Source: Desulfocapsaceae bacterium (lineage in GTDB: Bacteria; Desulfobacterota; Desulfobulbia; Desulfobulbales; Desulfocapsaceae). Taken from it: a DNA stretch of 64,000 bases. The position numbers and the translations under genes were made by a program. How positions within the stretch are numbered: position 1 is the first letter of the stretch; the number at the start of each line of letters is the position of its first letter. Below the pieces are notes generated by a model. It did not search any database and was not told the DNA's origin. It saw nothing but the letters and a program-made list of their open reading frames with translations. The stretch is taken from positions 1 through 64,000 of the forward strand of contig JARLHL010000047.1 in the NCBI GenBank assembly GCA_031292275.1. The letters are read 5' to 3'. Shown here one piece after another: positions 26,118-35,036 of the stretch.

Positions 26118-28811
26118 TCAGGGCGTTGCTGCCTGTCCATTATCGGCGGGATTCATATATGGGGCCCAAGTCAACCAGCAGGACTCAGCCTCATCATAGA
26201 GGTCGAAGCGGTGCCCCTGATCCACTTTACCCCCCATCTCGCCGCCATCGGGGGTGGCCAAGGCGATGCCTCCTGCGACGATGGCCTCGACAGATTCGGC
26301 GGAAACGGTGACGCCTGAGAAGAGACCGGCATCGAACTTTGCGCCGCTGACGTTCCAGAAACGGGTATTTTCCCGGATTATCCGGGCGTAGGCATGGGCA
26401 ATGTTGACGTTGATCTGAACATTCTGAAACGACTTGGAGAGTGCGAAGCCGGTGATCTCACCCACCTTGACCTGCCGGTAATAGACCGGGGAGTGGATCT
26501 TCAGGGAGCCCAGACGCTTACTGGTAAGCACAAGATTCAGCCCCTGCTGCGGGATGGTAACCTGCGGCTCTTCATCCAGTGCAACGAATTCCCGGCTGAG
26601 CTGTCCTTCTCCCGGCGCCACGGCGATATAGGGACCGGAGGTGACGGTGTCCAGGTTTTTGATCCCGGAGAGGCTGACCGACGGGCTGGCGAGCCAGAGT
26701 TGGGTTGCGGTCCGGAACAGGCTGAGAAACTCCTTTTTCACCGCTATCTCGGCAATAATGGTCTTCAGGTCTCCGGCAAACCGGGTCTCCGTCACCTTGC
26801 CGATGGGTATGCCTTTATATTTGACGAGTGTGCCGGCCTTCAGATCACTGGCCTCGGCAAAGCGGATAGTCATCTTCAGGTCGTCGGCGATCCGGGCCGC
26901 ATCTTCAGTCTTGAAGAGGGTGTAGACCGCGTTGACCTCGGGTCTCTTGCCGCCGGGAGGGCTTATAAATCCGATACCGGCGGAGACGATCGACTCGAGT
27001 GAGCCGGTCTGCACGGTCAGCCCCGAGAGCCCCCCCTCTACATGTATGCCGCTGAGATCGAAAAACCGTGAGGTGCTGGAGACCATATCCTGGTATGGCT
27101 GCTTGATGAAGCAATCGATGAGGACATCCTTGTCCCTGCCTGAAAAATGAAAACCGACGACCTCTCCGACCGTTACCTTTTTGAACAGGATGGGAGATCC
27201 AACCTTATAGGGCCCGAGATCGTCGGCCTTGAGTTGGAAGGAATACCCCATGGGCTGGAGAGAGGGGATCTTGGCAACGGCTTCGTTGAAGCTGTTATAG
27301 AGCGTAAAGGTCTGGCCTGCCTTGGCCGGGAGCGTCTTCTTCTTCCCCGGATCCGGGTTGAAAAGGGTAATGCCGCCCTGAAGAAGCGAGGAGAGGGAAC
27401 CGACATCCACCTTCAGGCCGGAAAAAAGGCCGGCGTCCACCTTGATGCCGCTGCTGTTCCAGAACACGGAATTTTGCTGCAGCAGTTGTTCATGGGGCTG
27501 ATAGATGAATATCTTTATTCGGATTCGGTCCTGAGTAAGATCTACGCTGACGATCTCGCCGACCTGGACATTTTTATAGATAACCGGCGCTCCCACGGAG
27601 AGCGGGCTGGTATTGTCCGTGGTCAGGAAATATTCTGTCCCGGGCCGCAGGGGTGTCTGGGCCGGGGGGGTGGCCAGGATTTCGAAATGGTCCTGAAACT
27701 GTCCCTCGCCGGGCTCAAAGGTGATATACGGGCCGTCCAGGGCAGTATCGAGATTTTTTATTCCGCTAATACCGATTTCCGGCTGGTTGATCCAGAAGGT
27801 CGTCCCCTGTTTGAGAATACCTTTTGCCCGCGGGTCCAGAAGGATATGGGCCGTTACCATATGCTGGGCATCATTGTTGAATTCGATATTGTCGACGATG
27901 CCTGCATTCATACCGTGGTATATCACCTTGGTGACTCCTTCGGTAATCCCGTTGCTGGAGGAAAGTCGTAAGGACATGGGCACCACGTATCGTGAGGCGT
28001 CGATATCCTTATAGAGGGTAAATGTCTGACCGTTCCGGGACGGAGGGCTGGATTCCAGAGGCTCGGGGGTATCCAGGACGATGCCGCCCATAATTAGGGA
28101 GGCGATGGATTCCACATGGAACTTCAGGTCTGTGAGTTTCCCGGAAATGCCGAAACCACTGGCATTTCTGAAACGGCTTCCCTCGCGCACCAGATGGCTG
28201 TAGGCCGGTTCGATATAGGTATTGATGATGACATTGTCATCATTTTCAAGACTATAGGTCTGCACCGTGCCGATGCGGATGTTGCGGTAGTAGATCCCGG
28301 AGCCGACCTGGATGGAGCGAAGTGCATCCGCTTTGAGAAAGAGATGCAGGCCAGGGGCGTTGGCAGAGACCGGAGGAGGGGTCGACAGGCCGGTAAATTC
28401 ACGTTCGGGCTCCGTTGAGATCCCCGTCTGGACGCCGATATAGCTCCCGGAGAGAATCGTCTCAAGGCCATAGACTCTGGCGGCGGAGAGCTCCGGGCGG
28501 ACAATCCAAAAGGTGGTATCCTTCATCAGGTATTTTCCCATCTCTTTGTCCATCTTAACCGTTGTGCATATTCGATGCTTGTCGAGATCCGGTTTCACCT
28601 CTTTGACCAGTCCGACCGGTATGCCCCGGGAGACGATCTGGGTCTTTCCGGCAGTGATGCCGCTTGCGTCTTCAAAATAGATGGTGATCTCAATGCCCGC
28701 GTTCTGGTAGGCCCGGAAGAGGATCCAGCCGCAGATCAGCAGGGCTATGAGGGGGAGTGTCCATACTGGTGAGATACCGCGTTTTTTACGTACAACAGGT
28801 CGTGTGTCCAT
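26118..28811 (-). CDS. letB: LetB-like protein with seven MCE domains
   Basis: About 897 residues: a short cytoplasmic N-terminus, one membrane helix (TLPLIALLICGWILF), then seven MCE repeats. The repeats start near residues 44, 154, 281, 392, 523, 646 and 759, each with a V-x-Y/F-[KR]-x-[IV]-x-[VI]-G core (e.g. GSGIYYRNIRIGTV, GAPVIYKNVQVGEI, GSPILFKKVTVGEV). Seven repeats is the number in Escherichia coli LetB (YebT); PqiB has three. LetB forms a stacked-ring tunnel across the periplasm for lipid transport between membranes. The adjacent upstream gene is the matching LetA-type protein, five bases away. ATG 28811 is chosen because the longer frame (28856) would overlap the upstream gene by 40 bases. 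Confidence 0.92.
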   Translation of the reverse strand: MDTRPVVRKKRGISPVWTLPLIALLICGWILFRAYQNAGIEITIYFEDASGITAGKTQIVSRGIPVGLVKEVKPDLDKHRICTTVKMDKEMGKYLMKDTTFWIVRPELSAARVYGLETILSGSYIGVQTGISTEPEREFTGLSTPPPVSANAPGLHLFLKADALRSIQVGSGIYYRNIRIGTVQTYSLENDDNVIINTYIEPAYSHLVREGSRFRNASGFGISGKLTDLKFHVESIASLIMGGIVLDTPEPLESSPPSRNGQTFTLYKDIDASRYVVPMSLRLSSSNGITEGVTKVIYHGMNAGIVDNIEFNNDAQHMVTAHILLDPRAKGILKQGTTFWINQPEIGISGIKNLDTALDGPYITFEPGEGQFQDHFEILATPPAQTPLRPGTEYFLTTDNTSPLSVGAPVIYKNVQVGEIVSVDLTQDRIRIKIFIYQPHEQLLQQNSVFWNSSGIKVDAGLFSGLKVDVGSLSSLLQGGITLFNPDPGKKKTLPAKAGQTFTLYNSFNEAVAKIPSLQPMGYSFQLKADDLGPYKVGSPILFKKVTVGEVVGFHFSGRDKDVLIDCFIKQPYQDMVSSTSRFFDLSGIHVEGGLSGLTVQTGSLESIVSAGIGFISPPGGKRPEVNAVYTLFKTEDAARIADDLKMTIRFAEASDLKAGTLVKYKGIPIGKVTETRFAGDLKTIIAEIAVKKEFLSLFRTATQLWLASPSVSLSGIKNLDTVTSGPYIAVAPGEGQLSREFVALDEEPQVTIPQQGLNLVLTSKRLGSLKIHSPVYYRQVKVGEITGFALSKSFQNVQINVNIAHAYARIIRENTRFWNVSGAKFDAGLFSGVTVSAESVEAIVAGGIALATPDGGEMGGKVDQGHRFDLYDEAESCWLTWAPYMNPADNGQAATP

Positions 28812-28816
28812 AGTCT

Positions 28817-30247
28817 TCAACTTTTCTCGGAGGATGGAGTAAAGCAATTGTCCCACAACAGCCTTGCATCAAAGGTCTGGGTCGCAAGCATGGTCAGTAT
28901 CACCACCAGGCAGAAGTATGTGGCGGCCGGCGCTGCCTGGATGGAAGTGAAAAGACCGAATTGGACAAGGACGCTCAGGATTGCGATGACGAATATATCC
29001 AGCATGGACCATCGGCCGATGAATTCGATAAAACGAAACATCCTGGCGGTCTGCTGCAGAAAGACCCCCTGCCTGAACCTGATGGTCAGCAGGATGATCA
29101 GGAGGCCTGTAATTTTAAAGAGAGGAACCAGGATGCTAGCAGCCAGGATAATCAGGCCGATACCGAAGGAGCCCTCCTGAAAAAAAAGAATAATACCATC
29201 AAGAATGGTTGAGTTGGTCGGCTGTCCTAGATAGTTCACGTGCATTATCGGCAGGGTATTGGCCGGTATGAAGAGCATTGCCGCAGTCAGAATCAGAGCC
29301 CAAGTTCGCCCGATGCTGTCGGCCTTGCGGATATGGAGGCCTGCCCCGCAGAAACTGCAGCTGACGGCATGGCCTGCCGCCTCGGCGGAAAGGACGGTCA
29401 GCCTGTGGCAGATATCGCAGGCGACAAGCCCTGCATTCCTGGCCGTGACCGCCTTGACACCCAGGTCCGGTCCGGTTTCTTCTTCGCCGTTCGAAGAAAG
29501 ATTCTCCTCCCTTCTCTCTATGCGGGCCCAGAAGAGTTTTCTGTCAAGACAGGCCGTTGTTCCCACCATGACCATAACCAGGGCGAGAAAGCAGTAGAAG
29601 CCAAGGCCGTAGGTAATGGTCGTCATGTGGTACATCTTGATTACAGTGACCATGATTCCCAGGAGATAGATCTCCACCATGGCCCATTCTTCCAGGTGGA
29701 TATAGCTCCGGAACAGCGTCGGTAGAATCCGGGGGGATTTTCCCAACTTGACAGATATTGCCACCGCGAATCCGAGGGAGAGTTTCAGTAACGGAAAAAG
29801 GATGGCGGCAAGGAGTACCGTGCCGGCGACAAAATTAAAGCCCTGCCGATAGTAACCGGCAGCGGATTGGATAATGTTGGCGGTCTCGGAGATTCCCAGG
29901 GTTTCGACAGTCATCAGGGGAAGGAGCATGGCCGGGAAATAGAGAAGAAGGCCAGCCAGACAAAGGGCGACGGTCCGGTCGATGGAGTCCTTCCTGTGCC
30001 GATGCAGTTCTGTGCGGCACCGGCGGCAGCTTATGACCTCACCTTCACCGGCAGTTATATCGGGGAGCAGAAGATCACAGCCTGGACAGGCAATCAGGTG
30101 ATCGAGATCAGAAGGCGTCAGGTTGTTCACGGATGACAATCCGGTTACGTCCGGCTTTTGGCCGCCTTTGCCCGCTGCTCGATCATACAATTCTCGCCGT
30201 AGCGCTGCTCCGCTTGCGGTTTTGTTCAACTGGCGAAATCCCTTCAA
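28817..30247 (-). CDS. letA: LetA/PqiA-type inner-membrane protein
   Basis: Up to 476 residues with two PqiA domains. Each is introduced by a zinc-ribbon-like pair of Cys-x-x-Cys knuckles: CPGC..CRRC and CDIC..CSFC. Each then has four hydrophobic helices with FPAMLLPLMTVETLG and FIPANTLPIMHVNYLG. It is the predicted partner that loads or unloads lipid at the inner-membrane end of the LetB tunnel. Domain content and gene order match Escherichia coli YebS-YebT. The N-terminus is uncertain: the frame opens with TTG 30247, while GTG 30130 would give a start close to the first knuckle; neither has a clear ribosome site. A sigma-70 promoter lies about 100 bases upstream of 30247. Confidence 0.9.
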   Translation of the reverse strand: MKGFRQLNKTASGAALRRELYDRAAGKGGQKPDVTGLSSVNNLTPSDLDHLIACPGCDLLLPDITAGEGEVISCRRCRTELHRHRKDSIDRTVALCLAGLLLYFPAMLLPLMTVETLGISETANIIQSAAGYYRQGFNFVAGTVLLAAILFPLLKLSLGFAVAISVKLGKSPRILPTLFRSYIHLEEWAMVEIYLLGIMVTVIKMYHMTTITYGLGFYCFLALVMVMVGTTACLDRKLFWARIERREENLSSNGEEETGPDLGVKAVTARNAGLVACDICHRLTVLSAEAAGHAVSCSFCGAGLHIRKADSIGRTWALILTAAMLFIPANTLPIMHVNYLGQPTNSTILDGIILFFQEGSFGIGLIILAASILVPLFKITGLLIILLTIRFRQGVFLQQTARMFRFIEFIGRWSMLDIFVIAILSVLVQFGLFTSIQAAPAATYFCLVVILTMLATQTFDARLLWDNCFTPSSEKS

Positions 30248-30460: not shown

Positions 30461-31573
30461 TCATTTCTCCGGCTGATACTGGGGCAGGCTGAGCCAGCGC
30501 GGGTTGCTGACCCCCTCGCGATAGGCGGAAAGGGCCTCCGGAGACGAATTCACCCTGAGGTTGCTGTAGGATTCATCCTTGTTCTGCCAGCGCTCATGCC
30601 AGAAGACCGCAGCCTTAACCTGGGGAAAACGTTCCTGAAAATCCTGAAAGGCATTCTTGATCCATTCCGCCTTGTTGCCGTCCTGGGGGTACTCGCCGAT
30701 CCCCCATTCGGCCACGATCAGCGGCTTGTTGGGAGCGACCTTGCGGAGTTCTTCATAGGCGAGACGAAAGACATCGGAAAAGGATCCCCATCCCATGTAT
30801 TTTGAGATCTTTCCATAGACGCTGAGGGCAAGCACATCCACATAGTCCGCGCCGGGGTAGTAGGAGGCGTAGCGGTTCCAGGTGCCCTCGGGAGGATATG
30901 ACTGGTTGTTGACGTGGAAGACCCACTGGATGTTTTTTACGCCTTTAGCCCTTACCCGGTTGACGACGTAGCGGTAGGCCTCCTTGTAGATCTTGGGGCC
31001 CAGAGGGTCATTGGGCGGGTTGAGCAGGTCTTTCTGGCCCCCGCCGTAATAGTAGCCGGACCACGGGAACCAGGTCCCGTTCATCTCAATGCCCCAGGCA
31101 ACCAGCAGAGGTTTGCCGCAATCTCTGGCATCTTCCGCCCATTTATCGATATAGGCATCCCACGCCCCGCTCAGGATATTGTAGAGGTTGAAGCGGTCCG
31201 GAAGCAGGCCTTCGGAATACGGTTTGTCCCAAGGAGACCAGAATATGAGGGGAGTTGCACCATAATGGGTTACGATCATGACATTTTTCTTGGGGAATGC
31301 CTGCTCGCCCCAGAAGTTGCCGAAGGCGATGATCGCCTGATGCTTCCCCACCATCTTCTCAAATTTCTCCAGGGCCTCCAGAGTGATATTATCTTCACCG
31401 TCTCCGAAATCCACGTAGGCCCCGGTATAGGCCCCCTTCTCCGGAAAGATCAGTTTCTGGGCCGGCCCGGCCGTTTGCCCGGCAACCGGAAGGTCTGTCG
31501 CCCCGAGGGGAAGAGCGAGTCCCAGGAGCAGGAAAAGGGCAAATACCGTACGGTTGGCAGAGAGTATTTTCAT
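30461..31573 (-). CDS. secreted glycoside hydrolase, GH26-like (beta-mannanase fold)
   Basis: 370 residues with a signal peptide (FALFLLLGLALPLGATD). The (beta/alpha)8 GH26 pattern is visible: GAYTGAYVDFGDGED at the entry and IFWSPWDKPYSEG. The acid/base Glu is in WGIEMNGTWFPWSGYYYGG (about 162) and the nucleophile Glu in LIVAEWGIGEY (about 287). GH26 enzymes cut beta-mannans or related beta-1,3/1,4-glucans. It probably acts on the exopolysaccharide made by the adjacent fused synthase, whose stop is only 34 bases upstream of this start, as a trimming or release hydrolase. No clear ribosome site precedes ATG 31573, so translation may depend on the upstream gene. Substrate not determinable. Confidence 0.85.
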   Translation of the reverse strand: MKILSANRTVFALFLLLGLALPLGATDLPVAGQTAGPAQKLIFPEKGAYTGAYVDFGDGEDNITLEALEKFEKMVGKHQAIIAFGNFWGEQAFPKKNVMIVTHYGATPLIFWSPWDKPYSEGLLPDRFNLYNILSGAWDAYIDKWAEDARDCGKPLLVAWGIEMNGTWFPWSGYYYGGGQKDLLNPPNDPLGPKIYKEAYRYVVNRVRAKGVKNIQWVFHVNNQSYPPEGTWNRYASYYPGADYVDVLALSVYGKISKYMGWGSFSDVFRLAYEELRKVAPNKPLIVAEWGIGEYPQDGNKAEWIKNAFQDFQERFPQVKAAVFWHERWQNKDESYSNLRVNSSPEALSAYREGVSNPRWLSLPQYQPEK

Positions 31574-31607
31574 AGTATTTATGTGTCTTAATCAATAGAG
31601 CCTAGAA

Positions 31608-34600
31608 TCAAGAGCTGATGCCGGTCCGGTCCTTGACGGATGCGGTTCGTTCCAGCTTTCCCCAGCCGACCAATACGCCTTTCGCTGCTTTGAACAGTGA
31701 TTTCCAGATAACCCAACTCAGCATGGGCCGGTAGACGAACCGCATGGGGACAGCAAGCCAGGCCTGCCGGACCGGCTCTCGTTCCATCAGACAGGCCATG
31801 GCGGCCAGCAGGATGTCCATCAGCAGAAAAACCGCAAAATAGGCATACAGGGCCGGACTGCTCCAGCCAAACAGCAGCGACAGGATGACCAGCAGGTCGA
31901 TTATCGGCGCTATGGCCACCAGAAGGACCTGAAAAAACCAGATGCCGGGCAGGCTGAAGCACCCCAATGCCTTGAAATGGGTATTCATTACCATGTCCCT
32001 ATGTTTCCAGAGACATTGGATCGTTCCGAATCCCCAGCGAAACCGTTGCTTAGCCAGGGCTGTTATGGTCTCCGGCGCCTCGGTGAAGGCCAGTGCGTCA
32101 GCGGCATAGGAGATCAGGAATCCATGCCGATGGAGGCTCAGGGTCAGGTCCGTATCCTCGGCCAGGGTGTCGGTACTGATCCCCCCCGCCTGTATGACCG
32201 CGCTTTTTCTAAGGGCGCTGATGGCACCCGGGACCACCGTAATGCAGTTGAGGTAGTAATACGCCTGACGATCCAGTTTGAATCCGCATATATATTCCAA
32301 AGACTGACAGCGGGCAATGAATTTCCTCAGGTTTCCGACCTTGGCATGGCCCGATACGGCTGCGACCCGGGGGTTTTCAAGAGGTTGGATGAGTTTGAAG
32401 AGGGTGTCCGGCTGAAACTGGGTATCTGCATCCAGGGTGACCACGATATCGTCGGCGATCTCTGCCAGCCCTCGGCGCAGGGCCAGGGCCTTTCCCATGT
32501 TGGACTGGCGGATGAGGTGCACCCGCGGGTCCCGGGCGGCAAAGGATTCAATGACCGCTGAGGTCTCGTCCGCTGAGCCGTCATCCACCACCCAGAGGGA
32601 GAGCGTGCCTGGATAGGTGGTGTTGAGGACGGATTGCAGGGTCTTGGCAATGACCTTTTCTTCGTTGTAAGCGGCGATGAGGACGCTCAACGACGGGGTG
32701 AACTGGGATTCCTGTGTCTTTGCCGATTGTCTCTGCTGCAGCAGGGCCAGGACCAGGACGGCAATGGTACGCAGAACGACCAGAACGGTGGCGACGATCA
32801 TGAAGGACCAGAGAAAGGTCTCGACAATATGAAAAATCCTGAATCCGCTGTCGCTGACAATGCGGTTGAGCGGATCCTGGTCTTTGCGCACCGCCGGCAT
32901 CAGGGCATCGGAAGGTTCTCCCAGGAGGGTCCCCAGGGATACGATTTTGTCACCGCGGTTATTGAGGTAATCAATGATTTTGGGCAGGGCGGCAACGGTC
33001 TCGGCGCGGTCGCCGCCGGCGTCGTGCAGGAGAATGACATTGCCGCCCAGCTGACGGCCCATCTTAATACGATCGAGGATCTCGTCGGTGCCGGGTTGTG
33101 CCCAGTCTTCCGGGTCCACGTCTTCGGTCACCGTCACGTAACCCATACTCTGGACCGTCTCCAGCGGCAGGATCTCGTCCAGTGATGTGGGCCGGGAGTC
33201 CGCATTGTAAGGAGGCCTGAACAGGATCGTCGACCGACCGGTTATACTTTCGAGAAGCCGCTGGGTGGCGTTCAGTTCCAGACGGATTCTTTCCTCCGAG
33301 ACCAAGGCCAGGTTGGGATGGGTATAGGTGTGAACGCCAATCTCATGCCCTTCCTGAAGGACACGGCGGACCAGTCCCGGATTGTTTTCCATCTGCATGC
33401 CGACCATGAAGAAGGAGGCCTTGACGCCCTTTGTCTTCAGGATATCGAGTATCTGAGGGGTCCATTCCGGATCGGGGCCATCATCGAAGCTTAACGCCAC
33501 CTCATCGATATCCTTGCCGTTTCCCTGATGGCTGACCGTCAGATAACTCGGAAATTTTTCATAGGTGGCGACAACGTTGCCGGTCGGGTCGAAGCTGACC
33601 TTCCTGAAGCCGTCGGCACGGGTGTCTTCAATGGTGAGAAATTCCCCCGTGCCCACCTGGGTTACGCCGTCGGAGTTGAGGCTGCTGACCTTCTGCAGGA
33701 GCTCCTGATTGATCTCGGATGGTTCCTTGCCGACAACATCCCATACGGCCGGGTCTTCCGCTCCCAGTTCATAGATGGCAACGCCTGTGATATCAAGTTT
33801 CCGGGCGGCTTTCAGCTGGTTGATGAAGGTGGCCACATCCAGGTACCAGACGGTATGCTCCGTGCCGTCATCCGAATAGTAAAAATCAGGATTATAAAAC
33901 GGGGGTTCCACCTTATCGGTCTGGACCCCGGCCCGGCCGGCGCGGGTCATCACGTCGGCAAAACTGACGGTTTCGGCCCGGGGGGTGCCATTGGCCCAAT
34001 CGTAGCCGTAGGCCCCCAGCTCAACGATCCACTGGGATGGCCTGCCATAGGCGGTGATTGTGTTGAGCCATCCTTCGAACCAGTTCTGGGAGGCGATGGG
34101 GCCCGGCGGATCGGTGTCGGAGTTCTCATCGTGCAGGGCGGCGACAAAGTGATCCACATCCTGGGAGAGGGTCTCCAGGTCGTAGAGCATCAGCTCGCGG
34201 CCCATGGGGATCCGCAGCCAGACTTCCATATCCTTGGCGTGCAGAGCGGTGGCGATCTGCTGCAGGAGCTGGGTGATATTGTTCTTGTAGGTAGGATCGA
34301 CCTGCCCCCAGTCGATCAGTACGCCGCCGGCCCCGGCCTCCAAAAGTCGGGCTGTCAGGTTTTTGATGAAAAGCTCTCTCCTCTCCGCCGGACCGTTGGC
34401 CACACCCTCAACCGCCTCCGGTTGCCAGACGTCATCCAGGATATTGGTGAGAAGGGGTAACAGTATGATCCCGTTTTGCTTTGCAATTCCTTGAACGGTA
34501 GGGTCCGGTTTGGCGAGAATCGTCCCCGTGCCATCCTCCATGATCAGCCATTCGGGACAGACATGGGTCAGCTGATGAGCATGGGCCTTGAGGGATGCGA

Positions 34601-35036
34601 GGCTGTTGGGATCCCAGGTCGCGTAAAAGCCGAGGCATATTTTTTTAGCCGGTGTACTCAGGGGCTGAAGCAGGGCGGGCGGCGAGACCTGGGGCAGGGC
34701 GGGCGGAACAGTCTGTGGTTTGACCGCCGTCTGGGCCTTTGGCGAGGACATGATCTGTCTGCCGGTGTGCTTTATCCGGGAAAACTCCAGCCATACCGGC
34801 TTGGCCGGTTTTTTCACGGCCTGCAGTTCATCCTTCTGCAGTACCCGCAGTCTCTCTTTCAGCAATTGAATCGACGGCGGCAGCTGGAATTTGGATACGA
34901 CAAAGAGGGATTGTACGAACATTATCGAGCAAATAAAGAAAATTGCGCCGAAGAGCAGGATGCAGAGGCGAAGCCTTGGCCATCGTTTTCCTTGAGTATC
35001 TAAAAAAACAAAGTTAGTATCGTGAATCTGAGGCAT
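31608..35036 (-). CDS. trimodular exopolysaccharide protein: GH18-like, NodB deacetylase, GT2 synthase
   Basis: 1142 residues. A cytoplasmic tail and one membrane helix (about 23-48) come first, then a periplasmic GH18-like barrel (about 132-480) and a NodB/CE4 polysaccharide deacetylase domain (SFDDGPD about 515, HTYTHPN, FRPPYN, ILLHDAGG). A second membrane helix (about 740-765) leads to a cytoplasmic family 2 glycosyltransferase (VVDDGSADET, LDADTQ, AEDTDL, QRFRW at about 998), with four C-terminal helices. It would polymerise an amino-sugar or related glycan and deacetylate it on export, combining on one chain what PgaB and PgaC do separately. The GH18 strand-4 motif is GVLIDWGQ, so the catalytic Glu is Gly and this domain is probably a binding module. 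A GH26 gene follows. Confidence 0.9.
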   Translation of the reverse strand: MPQIHDTNFVFLDTQGKRWPRLRLCILLFGAIFFICSIMFVQSLFVVSKFQLPPSIQLLKERLRVLQKDELQAVKKPAKPVWLEFSRIKHTGRQIMSSPKAQTAVKPQTVPPALPQVSPPALLQPLSTPAKKICLGFYATWDPNSLASLKAHAHQLTHVCPEWLIMEDGTGTILAKPDPTVQGIAKQNGIILLPLLTNILDDVWQPEAVEGVANGPAERRELFIKNLTARLLEAGAGGVLIDWGQVDPTYKNNITQLLQQIATALHAKDMEVWLRIPMGRELMLYDLETLSQDVDHFVAALHDENSDTDPPGPIASQNWFEGWLNTITAYGRPSQWIVELGAYGYDWANGTPRAETVSFADVMTRAGRAGVQTDKVEPPFYNPDFYYSDDGTEHTVWYLDVATFINQLKAARKLDITGVAIYELGAEDPAVWDVVGKEPSEINQELLQKVSSLNSDGVTQVGTGEFLTIEDTRADGFRKVSFDPTGNVVATYEKFPSYLTVSHQGNGKDIDEVALSFDDGPDPEWTPQILDILKTKGVKASFFMVGMQMENNPGLVRRVLQEGHEIGVHTYTHPNLALVSEERIRLELNATQRLLESITGRSTILFRPPYNADSRPTSLDEILPLETVQSMGYVTVTEDVDPEDWAQPGTDEILDRIKMGRQLGGNVILLHDAGGDRAETVAALPKIIDYLNNRGDKIVSLGTLLGEPSDALMPAVRKDQDPLNRIVSDSGFRIFHIVETFLWSFMIVATVLVVLRTIAVLVLALLQQRQSAKTQESQFTPSLSVLIAAYNEEKVIAKTLQSVLNTTYPGTLSLWVVDDGSADETSAVIESFAARDPRVHLIRQSNMGKALALRRGLAEIADDIVVTLDADTQFQPDTLFKLIQPLENPRVAAVSGHAKVGNLRKFIARCQSLEYICGFKLDRQAYYYLNCITVVPGAISALRKSAVIQAGGISTDTLAEDTDLTLSLHRHGFLISYAADALAFTEAPETITALAKQRFRWGFGTIQCLWKHRDMVMNTHFKALGCFSLPGIWFFQVLLVAIAPIIDLLVILSLLFGWSSPALYAYFAVFLLMDILLAAMACLMEREPVRQAWLAVPMRFVYRPMLSWVIWKSLFKAAKGVLVGWGKLERTASVKDRTGISS

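Follow-up and report, generated by a model that had tools for sequence, protein, structure and literature searches.

What does a bacterium make with a gene that joins a glycosidase-like barrel, a deacetylase and a glycosyltransferase in one polypeptide, and that is followed by a gene for a second glycosidase? Such a pair lies on a 64,000-nucleotide stretch of a Desulfocapsaceae genome (assembly GCA_031292275.1, contig JARLHL010000047.1), which at its full length is called the window below. The association of glycoside hydrolase (GH) genes with exopolysaccharide synthesis is an old one, and PMC9894940 calls their role there unclear. We consider it reasonably probable that the pair is a two-gene, synthase-dependent exopolysaccharide system in which the GH18 domain built into the synthase has decayed and a separate GH26 enzyme has taken over cutting. 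The gene anatomy, the intact catalytic residues of the CE4, GT2 and GH26 domains, the broken GH18 site and the co-inheritance of the two genes come directly out of the computation.

A three-domain synthase and a GH26 enzyme

An earlier note on this DNA, made from the letters alone, had described a GH18-like barrel, a NodB-type deacetylase and a GT2 glycosyltransferase in one chain, with a GH26 gene 34 bases after its stop codon, as a compact synthase-type exopolysaccharide locus. Pfam, alignment and an AlphaFold2 model bear this out: a single chain carries the GH18-type barrel, a CE4/NodB domain with its DD and HxxxH residues and a GT2 domain with QRFRW, the gap is exactly 31574-31607, and the reading of the locus is supported. 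The CE4 domain matches PF01522 (E 1.5e-33, amino acids (aa) 509-614) and the GT2 domain PF00535 (E 1e-30) and PF13641 (E 1.5e-30; Pfam aa 781-1004). The GH18 part had no Pfam match at E 0.1; a phmmer search of PDB nevertheless relates it to the chitinase 5jh8 (E 5e-15). The model of the fusion (mean predicted local distance difference test (pLDDT) 87.9, predicted TM-score (pTM) 0.69, 59 sequences), compared with solved structures, finds SleL 4s3k (E 6.6e-22) and 5jh8 (TMt 0.88), and its GT2 part resembles hyaluronan synthases.

Invariant in the 59-sequence alignment are D518/D519 and H569/H573 of CE4, and D819, D869/D871, E960/D961 and Q997/R998/R1000/W1001 of GT2. A single polypeptide thus holds CE4 and GT2, both with their catalytic motifs intact, which is the MatB-type architecture, and the invariance of the CE4 residues speaks for a chain that still bears acetyl groups.

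The second protein matches PF02156 over its cut-off (E 7e-12) and is nearest in sequence to endoglucanase H / CtLic26A (E 2e-31); its model (pLDDT 91.9) superimposes on CtLic26A with TMt 0.90 at 32% identity. E163 and E289, which by alignment we take to be acid/base and nucleophile, are kept in 56 of 56 GH26 enzymes partnered with the fusion. By eye, the GH26 protein has an N-terminal hydrophobic stretch. A simple pattern finds a lipobox-like motif in 35 of the 56 members; the window copy lacks it.

The GH26 gene is inherited with the fusion

Whole genomes were searched within the phylum of the window (395 genomes, one draw), and other phyla were covered from best-match lists. At E 1e-150 for the fusion and more than 300 bits for GH26, the phylum sample holds the fusion in 16 and the GH26 in 17 of the 395 genomes. 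GH26 is present in 16/16 genomes with the fusion versus 1/379 of the others (G235, 320 bits). It adjoins the fusion in 15 of the 16, with 53-171 bases between the profile matches and, in G022, across a contig break; in G306 the two genes lie on different contigs. The earlier note had expected conservation beside the fusion, and the across-phyla search, also run, extends it. Of the best 80 across-phyla matches, 68 loci count as the GH26 side of the fusion family, 45 of them in the tree described below and 23 assigned by similarity. Leaving out loci with less than 1.1 kb of downstream DNA (nine on the GH26 side, three outside), 59 could be checked: GH26 lies next to the fusion in 48, no more than 3 kb off in six, further away in one and is not seen in four. 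Outside the GH26 side, none of the nine checkable loci (Acidobacteriota, Bacillota) has a GH26 gene.

Pairwise distances between fusions follow those between their GH26 partners (Mantel r 0.83, a value that none of 2000 permutations reached; 39 loci, leaving out L076 and L033, which have two copies each). The pair is common to Desulfobacterota, Verrucomicrobiota and Gammaproteobacteria, within one fusion clade, and other neighbours are common only within lineages, not between phyla, as with a gene cluster present in 21 loci, many from soil Verrucomicrobiota. The pair is also present in a named strain, Desulfobulbus elongatus DSM 2908 (L053). GH26 is a genuine and specific partner of the fusion. 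That the two genes are chance neighbours or an artefact of gene calling is extremely improbable and was rejected, being contradicted by the significant match of each domain and by the 48 of 59 checkable loci in which the pairing is kept.

A quite unlikely alternative is plain PNAG (poly-N-acetylglucosamine) synthesis of the MatB kind, with GH26 an operon passenger that acts elsewhere, for example on a foreign polysaccharide. The CE4-GT2 core is MatB-like, MatAB is needed for PNAG according to PMC5972031, and all nine checkable Acidobacteriota and Bacillota fusions do without a GH26 neighbour. Yet this account does not sit well with a GH26 that is inherited together with the fusion in different phyla and seldom occurs otherwise, nor with the finding, described below, that its presence goes with GH18 decay.

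Variants of the arrangement also occur. L033 (11435-13916) has tandem GH26 copies after the fusion, and L076 two fusion plus GH26 pairs in tandem. Chthoniobacterales-type loci (L054, L057, L089, L091 and others) have a convergent open reading frame (ORF) of about 700-780 aa between fusion and GH26, with a discoidin-like stretch by eye.

The fusion itself is widespread

The earlier note had put the locus forward as the best candidate for an undescribed system. For the fusion taken alone this does not hold: the three-domain chain is common among genome and plasmid records and has representatives in at least seven phyla (Desulfobacterota, Verrucomicrobiota, Pseudomonadota, Acidobacteriota, Bacillota, Deinococcota and Bacteroidota), so that we dropped the fusion by itself as a novelty. 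Relatives across phyla were the best 80 of 548 matches in one scan of genome contigs, and these 80 come from Desulfobacterota, Verrucomicrobiota, Gammaproteobacteria, Acidobacteriota and Bacillota. Sphingomonadales, Rhodobacterales, Deinococcus and Prevotella come in through plasmid records, of which 17 span 80% or more of the query. Streptomyces (38% identity over 513-1139) and Kocuria have the CE4-GT2 core but no GH18 part. Of the two findings that the earlier note held would overturn its proposal, a common fusion is what we see, whereas loss of GH26 from beside it is contradicted.

On the Kocuria plasmid, a gene annotated as chitinase (L168:5948-6934), with a GH18 Pfam match below cut-off, neighbours the CE4-GT2 gene and is convergent to it. 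At G402:C361:1993-5335 the fusion lies in two adjacent pieces, from a split gene or a frame interruption.

The GH18 active-site triad is broken throughout the GH26 clade

For the fusion tree only the alignment columns of CE4 and GT2 were used (66 rows, leaving out rows more than 85% identical or shorter than 1050 aa), and it was rooted on the Streptomyces row, a long branch. The GH26-side fusions form one clade of 47 rows (SH-aLRT 99), with which FastTree agrees; GH26 is in view for 43 of them, the DNA of L042, L064 and L067 ends too early to show one, and the 1.9 kb at L048 contain none. The named rows nearest the window fusion are metagenome-assembled genomes of Desulfobacteraceae/Deltaproteobacteria. 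L098, titled Synechococcaceae cyanobacterium, clusters with Competibacteraceae and is possibly a mis-binned contig.

Three positions of the GH18 barrel were compared, which we take to be the catalytic acid (E244), the Tyr of the MxYD motif (Y302) and the Trp of strand 8 (W422). In the window they read G244, H302 and Y422, so that the fold proposed by the earlier note stands while the loss of its catalytic residues had gone unnoticed there. Glu244 is kept in 22/47 clade members versus 16/17 fusions outside, Tyr302 in 8/47 versus 17/17, and Trp422 in 1/47 versus 16/17, the last outside count leaving out the Streptomyces row, which has no GH18. The full triad is found in 0/47 inside the clade and in 16/17 outside it in the tree alignment. 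Of five further plasmid fusions, those of Sphingobium and Novosphingobium are intact and three from Rhodobacterales are broken. Counting the plasmid fusions and G559, 19 of the 23 fusions outside the clade, from several phyla, have the whole triad, and the four broken ones (L165, L170, L171 and L174), which have lost the GH18 Glu, are all on Rhodobacterales plasmids. In these four the next gene downstream is annotated DUF3131 (4/4; PF11329 confirmed in the two tested), a family that may belong to a glycosidase-like clan.

A second set gave the same picture. It covers part of the genomes found (30 search matches and 12 of the 16 phylum-sample fusion genomes, the rest added separately) and leaves out L207, which is N-terminally cut, three duplicate loci, and L210, an N-terminal piece of less than 900 bits. 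All 38 fusions with an adjacent GH26 and a readable GH18 site, the window included, are broken. L153/G306, with GH26 on another contig, is broken too, as are L199 and L152, where the DNA ends too soon to see GH26; in G015 and G559 GH18 is intact and the genomes have no GH26 profile match at E 0.001. Several of these loci are probably of the same species as best-80 loci, so the two sets are not independent. Near nine intact fusions (L099, L102, L104, L105, L106, L108 from Geobacillus, L109, L110 and L111) we found no Pfam hydrolase; the L105 neighbourhood has a NosD-type beta-helix protein, and ORFs from L102 and L106 matched no family.

GH18 decay might also be ordinary drift in a single ancestor, unrelated to GH26, with the two traits linked by common descent only. 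Both arose near the base of one clade, which leaves an effective sample of about two, and G015 combines an intact GH18 with a neighbouring GH8 ORF. We nevertheless regard drift as unlikely, since decay co-occurs separately with DUF3131 in Rhodobacterales (4/4) and, outside the clade, 19 of 23 fusions keep the triad.

The GH26 partners differ beside the acid/base

Directly before the acid/base the window GH26 has Ile162, at the place of the His of ordinary GH26 enzymes. Across the 56 partner GH26s this residue is Leu in 23, Asn in 17, Val in eight, Ile in six and Asp in two, and His in none. Ordinary GH26 enzymes of the same phylum have His-Glu in 11 of 11 readable loci (the twelfth, L136, is unreadable), and Pro stands there in the two enzymes of intermediate score, those of G235 and G383. 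In GlmA (GH35, clan A) the equivalent residue reads the C2 substituent, according to PMC6566704. We rejected this position as proof of a glucosamine substrate: Leu, Asn, Val, Ile or Asp marks a difference, not a specificity. Since the partners are unlike ordinary GH26s here, their substrate (mannan, glucan or glucosamine) cannot be read from the family name, and the earlier note's step from 'GH26 cannot act on poly-GlcNAc' (GlcNAc, N-acetylglucosamine) to a new polymer is an argument only, made about an enzyme that deviates beside its acid/base.

Polymer identity

The GT2 domain leans to GlcNAc, with a much better score for PgaC than for cellulose synthase: the fusion reaches 179 bits with TIGR03937 (PgaC/IcaA), under the curated cut-off of 422, and 72 bits with TIGR03030 (BcsA) against a cut-off of 699. 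Its identity is 43% to a Sphingomonas fusion, 37% to Streptomyces, 32% to PgaC, 28% to NodC and 25% to BcsA. The nearest deacetylase models of the CE4 domain are of the PgdA/PdaB/NodB type, and among solved structures chains named xylanase/chitin deacetylase score best.

A polymer that contains glucose, either a beta-glucan or a mixed glucose/glucosamine chain, has to be weighed against this. GH26 would cut lichenan-like stretches, CE4 would remove acetyls, and GH18 would have decayed for want of an N-acetyl group. Among solved structures the lichenase CtLic26A is the closest to the GH26. In G306, where GH26 is unlinked from the fusion, its gene lies (in the stretch L213:3512-8086) between a UDP-glucose (UDP, uridine diphosphate) pyrophosphorylase-like gene, which scores 352 bits against 2oef, and a GH16 gene most like beta-1,3-1,4-glucanases; it is these neighbours and the lichenase that give the glucose polymer its weight. 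The GH8 ORF of G015 is nearest to the glucanase 5xd0, and also to the chitosanases 7cju and 1v5c, and the CE4 family includes acetylxylan esterases. However, GT2 is far nearer to PgaC than to cellulose synthase, the CE4 models are of the PgdA/PdaB/NodB type even if the xylanase/chitin deacetylase structures lead, the usual GH26 His is absent in 56/56 so that glucan activity is not assured, and G306 is a single genome. We hold a glucose-containing polymer to be a minority possibility, somewhat unlikely.

Export

The earlier note had seen no Pga system or pore at the locus, and the exporter search that it had proposed for the rest of the genome was also negative. For PgaA (TIGR03939) the genome of the window has only matches under cut-off (best 42 bits); PgaD (TIGR03940) and AlgE have no match at E 0.001; the BcsC C-terminal domain (PF05420) has none at E 1e-10, weaker matches not being listed; and PgaB (TIGR03938) reaches 49 bits against a cut-off of 322. 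Among 58 relatives PgaA is over cut-off in one (G035, without the fusion), and the BcsC domain is present at E 1e-10 in two, neither with the fusion. We therefore dropped a dedicated exporter, from searches for PgaA, BcsC, PgaD and AlgE that did not extend to other porins. The polymer may have a different way out, or may remain in the envelope. Bacillota, which also have the fusion, as a rule lack an outer membrane.

A model for the two-gene system

Membrane topology, polymer chemistry, and the hand-over of function with its direction are what we infer beyond these results. The fusion would span the inner membrane, with its N-terminus probably in the cytoplasm, judging from basic residues ahead of the first transmembrane (TM) helix. 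The order GH18, beta domain, CE4 between TM1 and TM2, with modelled helices and a topology read from them, suggests periplasmic modules inserted in a PgaC-like synthase. The cytoplasmic GT2 would polymerise a UDP-sugar, most likely UDP-GlcNAc, and the chain would leave through the TM helices of GT2 itself, by likeness to MatB, PgaC and hyaluronan synthase. The periplasmic CE4, between TM1 and TM2 of the same chain, would deacetylate the emerging polymer. The GH18 barrel, presumably the former built-in hydrolase, would have been retained in the clade, its catalysis lost, as a chain-holding or structural domain, and the exported GH26 would have taken over cutting, be it trimming, release or the clearing of stuck chains.

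Several points weigh against this hand-over. The presence of GH26 and the loss of Y302 and W422 both fall near the base of the clade, so that the correlation amounts to about two independent events (the clade and Rhodobacterales), and E244 is still present in those 22 clade members. In G015, with an intact GH18, a GH8 ORF lies directly downstream (L215:4180-4974, 264 aa, apparently truncated), so that a neighbouring hydrolase is not always paired with a broken GH18. DUF3131 may be a hydrolase, as a candidate only. In L048, L052, L059 and L094 the downstream DNA examined has no GH26, no GH26 is known to cut GlcNAc polymers, and relatives of PgaA, BcsC, PgaD and AlgE were not found by the searches given above.

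A wider version of the hand-over model is possible but doubtful. The product would be an exopolysaccharide not described before, such as a beta-polymer of mixed glucose and glucosamine with part of its acetyl groups removed. Its maker would be a minimal machine of two genes in Desulfobacterota, Verrucomicrobiota and some Gammaproteobacteria, lacking a pore in the outer membrane of any known TPR type. A GH26 subfamily of new specificity would be its dedicated processor, and the hydrolase would have been handed over from the synthase chain at least twice, to unrelated proteins (GH26 and DUF3131).

Relatives of one synthase carry either a fused hydrolase with an intact site, or one that has decayed and almost always has a separate enzyme beside it. 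If the hand-over model is true, the cutting step would be under selection, and the GH26 subfamily and DUF3131 would be candidate enzymes that probably act on the polymer. The system has only two genes, simple to express, and comes from mostly uncultured bacteria.

Features of the locus

Table 1. Features of the fusion and GH26 genes, in window positions
Feature	Position	Strand	Basis or remark
GH18-CE4-GT2 fusion ORF, 1142 aa	31608..35036	(-)	ORF list, Pfam, AlphaFold2 model
TM helix 1 (aa 18-45)	34902..34985	(-)	AlphaFold2 helix; membrane topology inferred
GH18-type barrel (aa 133-449), SleL/YaaH fold, triad lost (G244, H302, Y422)	33690..34640	(-)	model, alignment
Codon 244, at which active GH18 would have its catalytic acid; Gly in window, Glu in 19/23 fusions outside the GH26 clade	34305..34307	(-)	alignment
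Small beta-strand domain (aa 458-504), between GH18 barrel and CE4	33525..33665	(-)	AlphaFold2 model
CE4/NodB deacetylase (aa 512-705), with D518, D519, H569, H573	32922..33503	(-)	Pfam, alignment, model
Long helix read as TM helix 2 (aa 722-772)	32721..32873	(-)	AlphaFold2 model; topology inferred
GT2 domain (aa 783-1011), DDG, DAD, AED and QRFRW motifs	32004..32690	(-)	Pfam, alignment
Helices read as TM 3-5 (aa 1023-1119)	31680..31970	(-)	AlphaFold2 model; topology inferred
Intergenic gap, 34 bases	31574..31607	(-)	no clear ribosome-binding site by eye
GH26 ORF, 370 aa	30461..31573	(-)	Pfam, fold; downstream of fusion

Downstream on the same strand (26118-30247) are a PqiA-like gene and one for a PqiB-like MCE protein in which seven MlaD stretches occur. 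We dropped them as parts of the system, no such neighbour being common to the locus clusters. Promoter-like (6 versus 3.5) and terminator-like (6 versus 5.1) sites were close to the shuffled expectation and were not used.

Comparison with known systems

In titles and the beginnings of abstracts, with most subscription journals outside its reach, a literature search gave no account of this fusion with GH26. A Wzx/Wzy cluster of Actinoplanes contains a GH26, according to PMC13390465, and is unlike the window locus. CtLic26A, the GH26 lichenase, shares fold, acid/base Glu and nucleophile Glu with the window enzyme; CtLic26A has the His before the acid/base, the partner GH26s never, and the window GH26 is an exported partner of a synthase.

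Rhizobium NodB and NodC likewise combine an N-deacetylase with a GlcNAc-polymerising GT2, but as separate genes with the NodA acyltransferase gene beside them, at 28-37% identity per domain; their product is an oligosaccharide. The PNAG system PgaABCD of E. coli follows the same synthase-dependent logic, with a GT2, a CE4 deacetylase and a glycosidase barrel. Its parts are separate proteins, however, and the CE4 of the window barely matches PgaB (E 0.07). E. coli PgaB carries CE4 and GH153 and resides in the outer membrane. The same three domains, at about 36-40% identity, make up the fusions of Bacillota and Acidobacteriota and those from Sphingobium, Deinococcus and Prevotella that are annotated 'glycosyltransferase'; all these differ in their intact GH18 triad and in having no GH26 of the partner type beside them where checked.

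In Streptomyces, MatB is a CE4-GT2 protein and MatAB is needed for PNAG (PMC5972031). Like the window fusion it has CE4 outside, a TM helix and GT2 inside in one polypeptide; unlike it, MatB has no GH18 barrel, and MatA and an IcaC-like gene stand beside it (same source). MatB itself is likened here by architecture, the 38% identity over 513-1139 being that of a MatB-like Streptomyces plasmid protein. The earlier note's candidate for an undescribed system survives in part: fusion and CE4-GT2 core are of known kind, and what is new is the dedicated GH26 and the accompanying decay of the built-in GH18. Among characterised kinds the CE4-GT2 core is closest to the MatB type.

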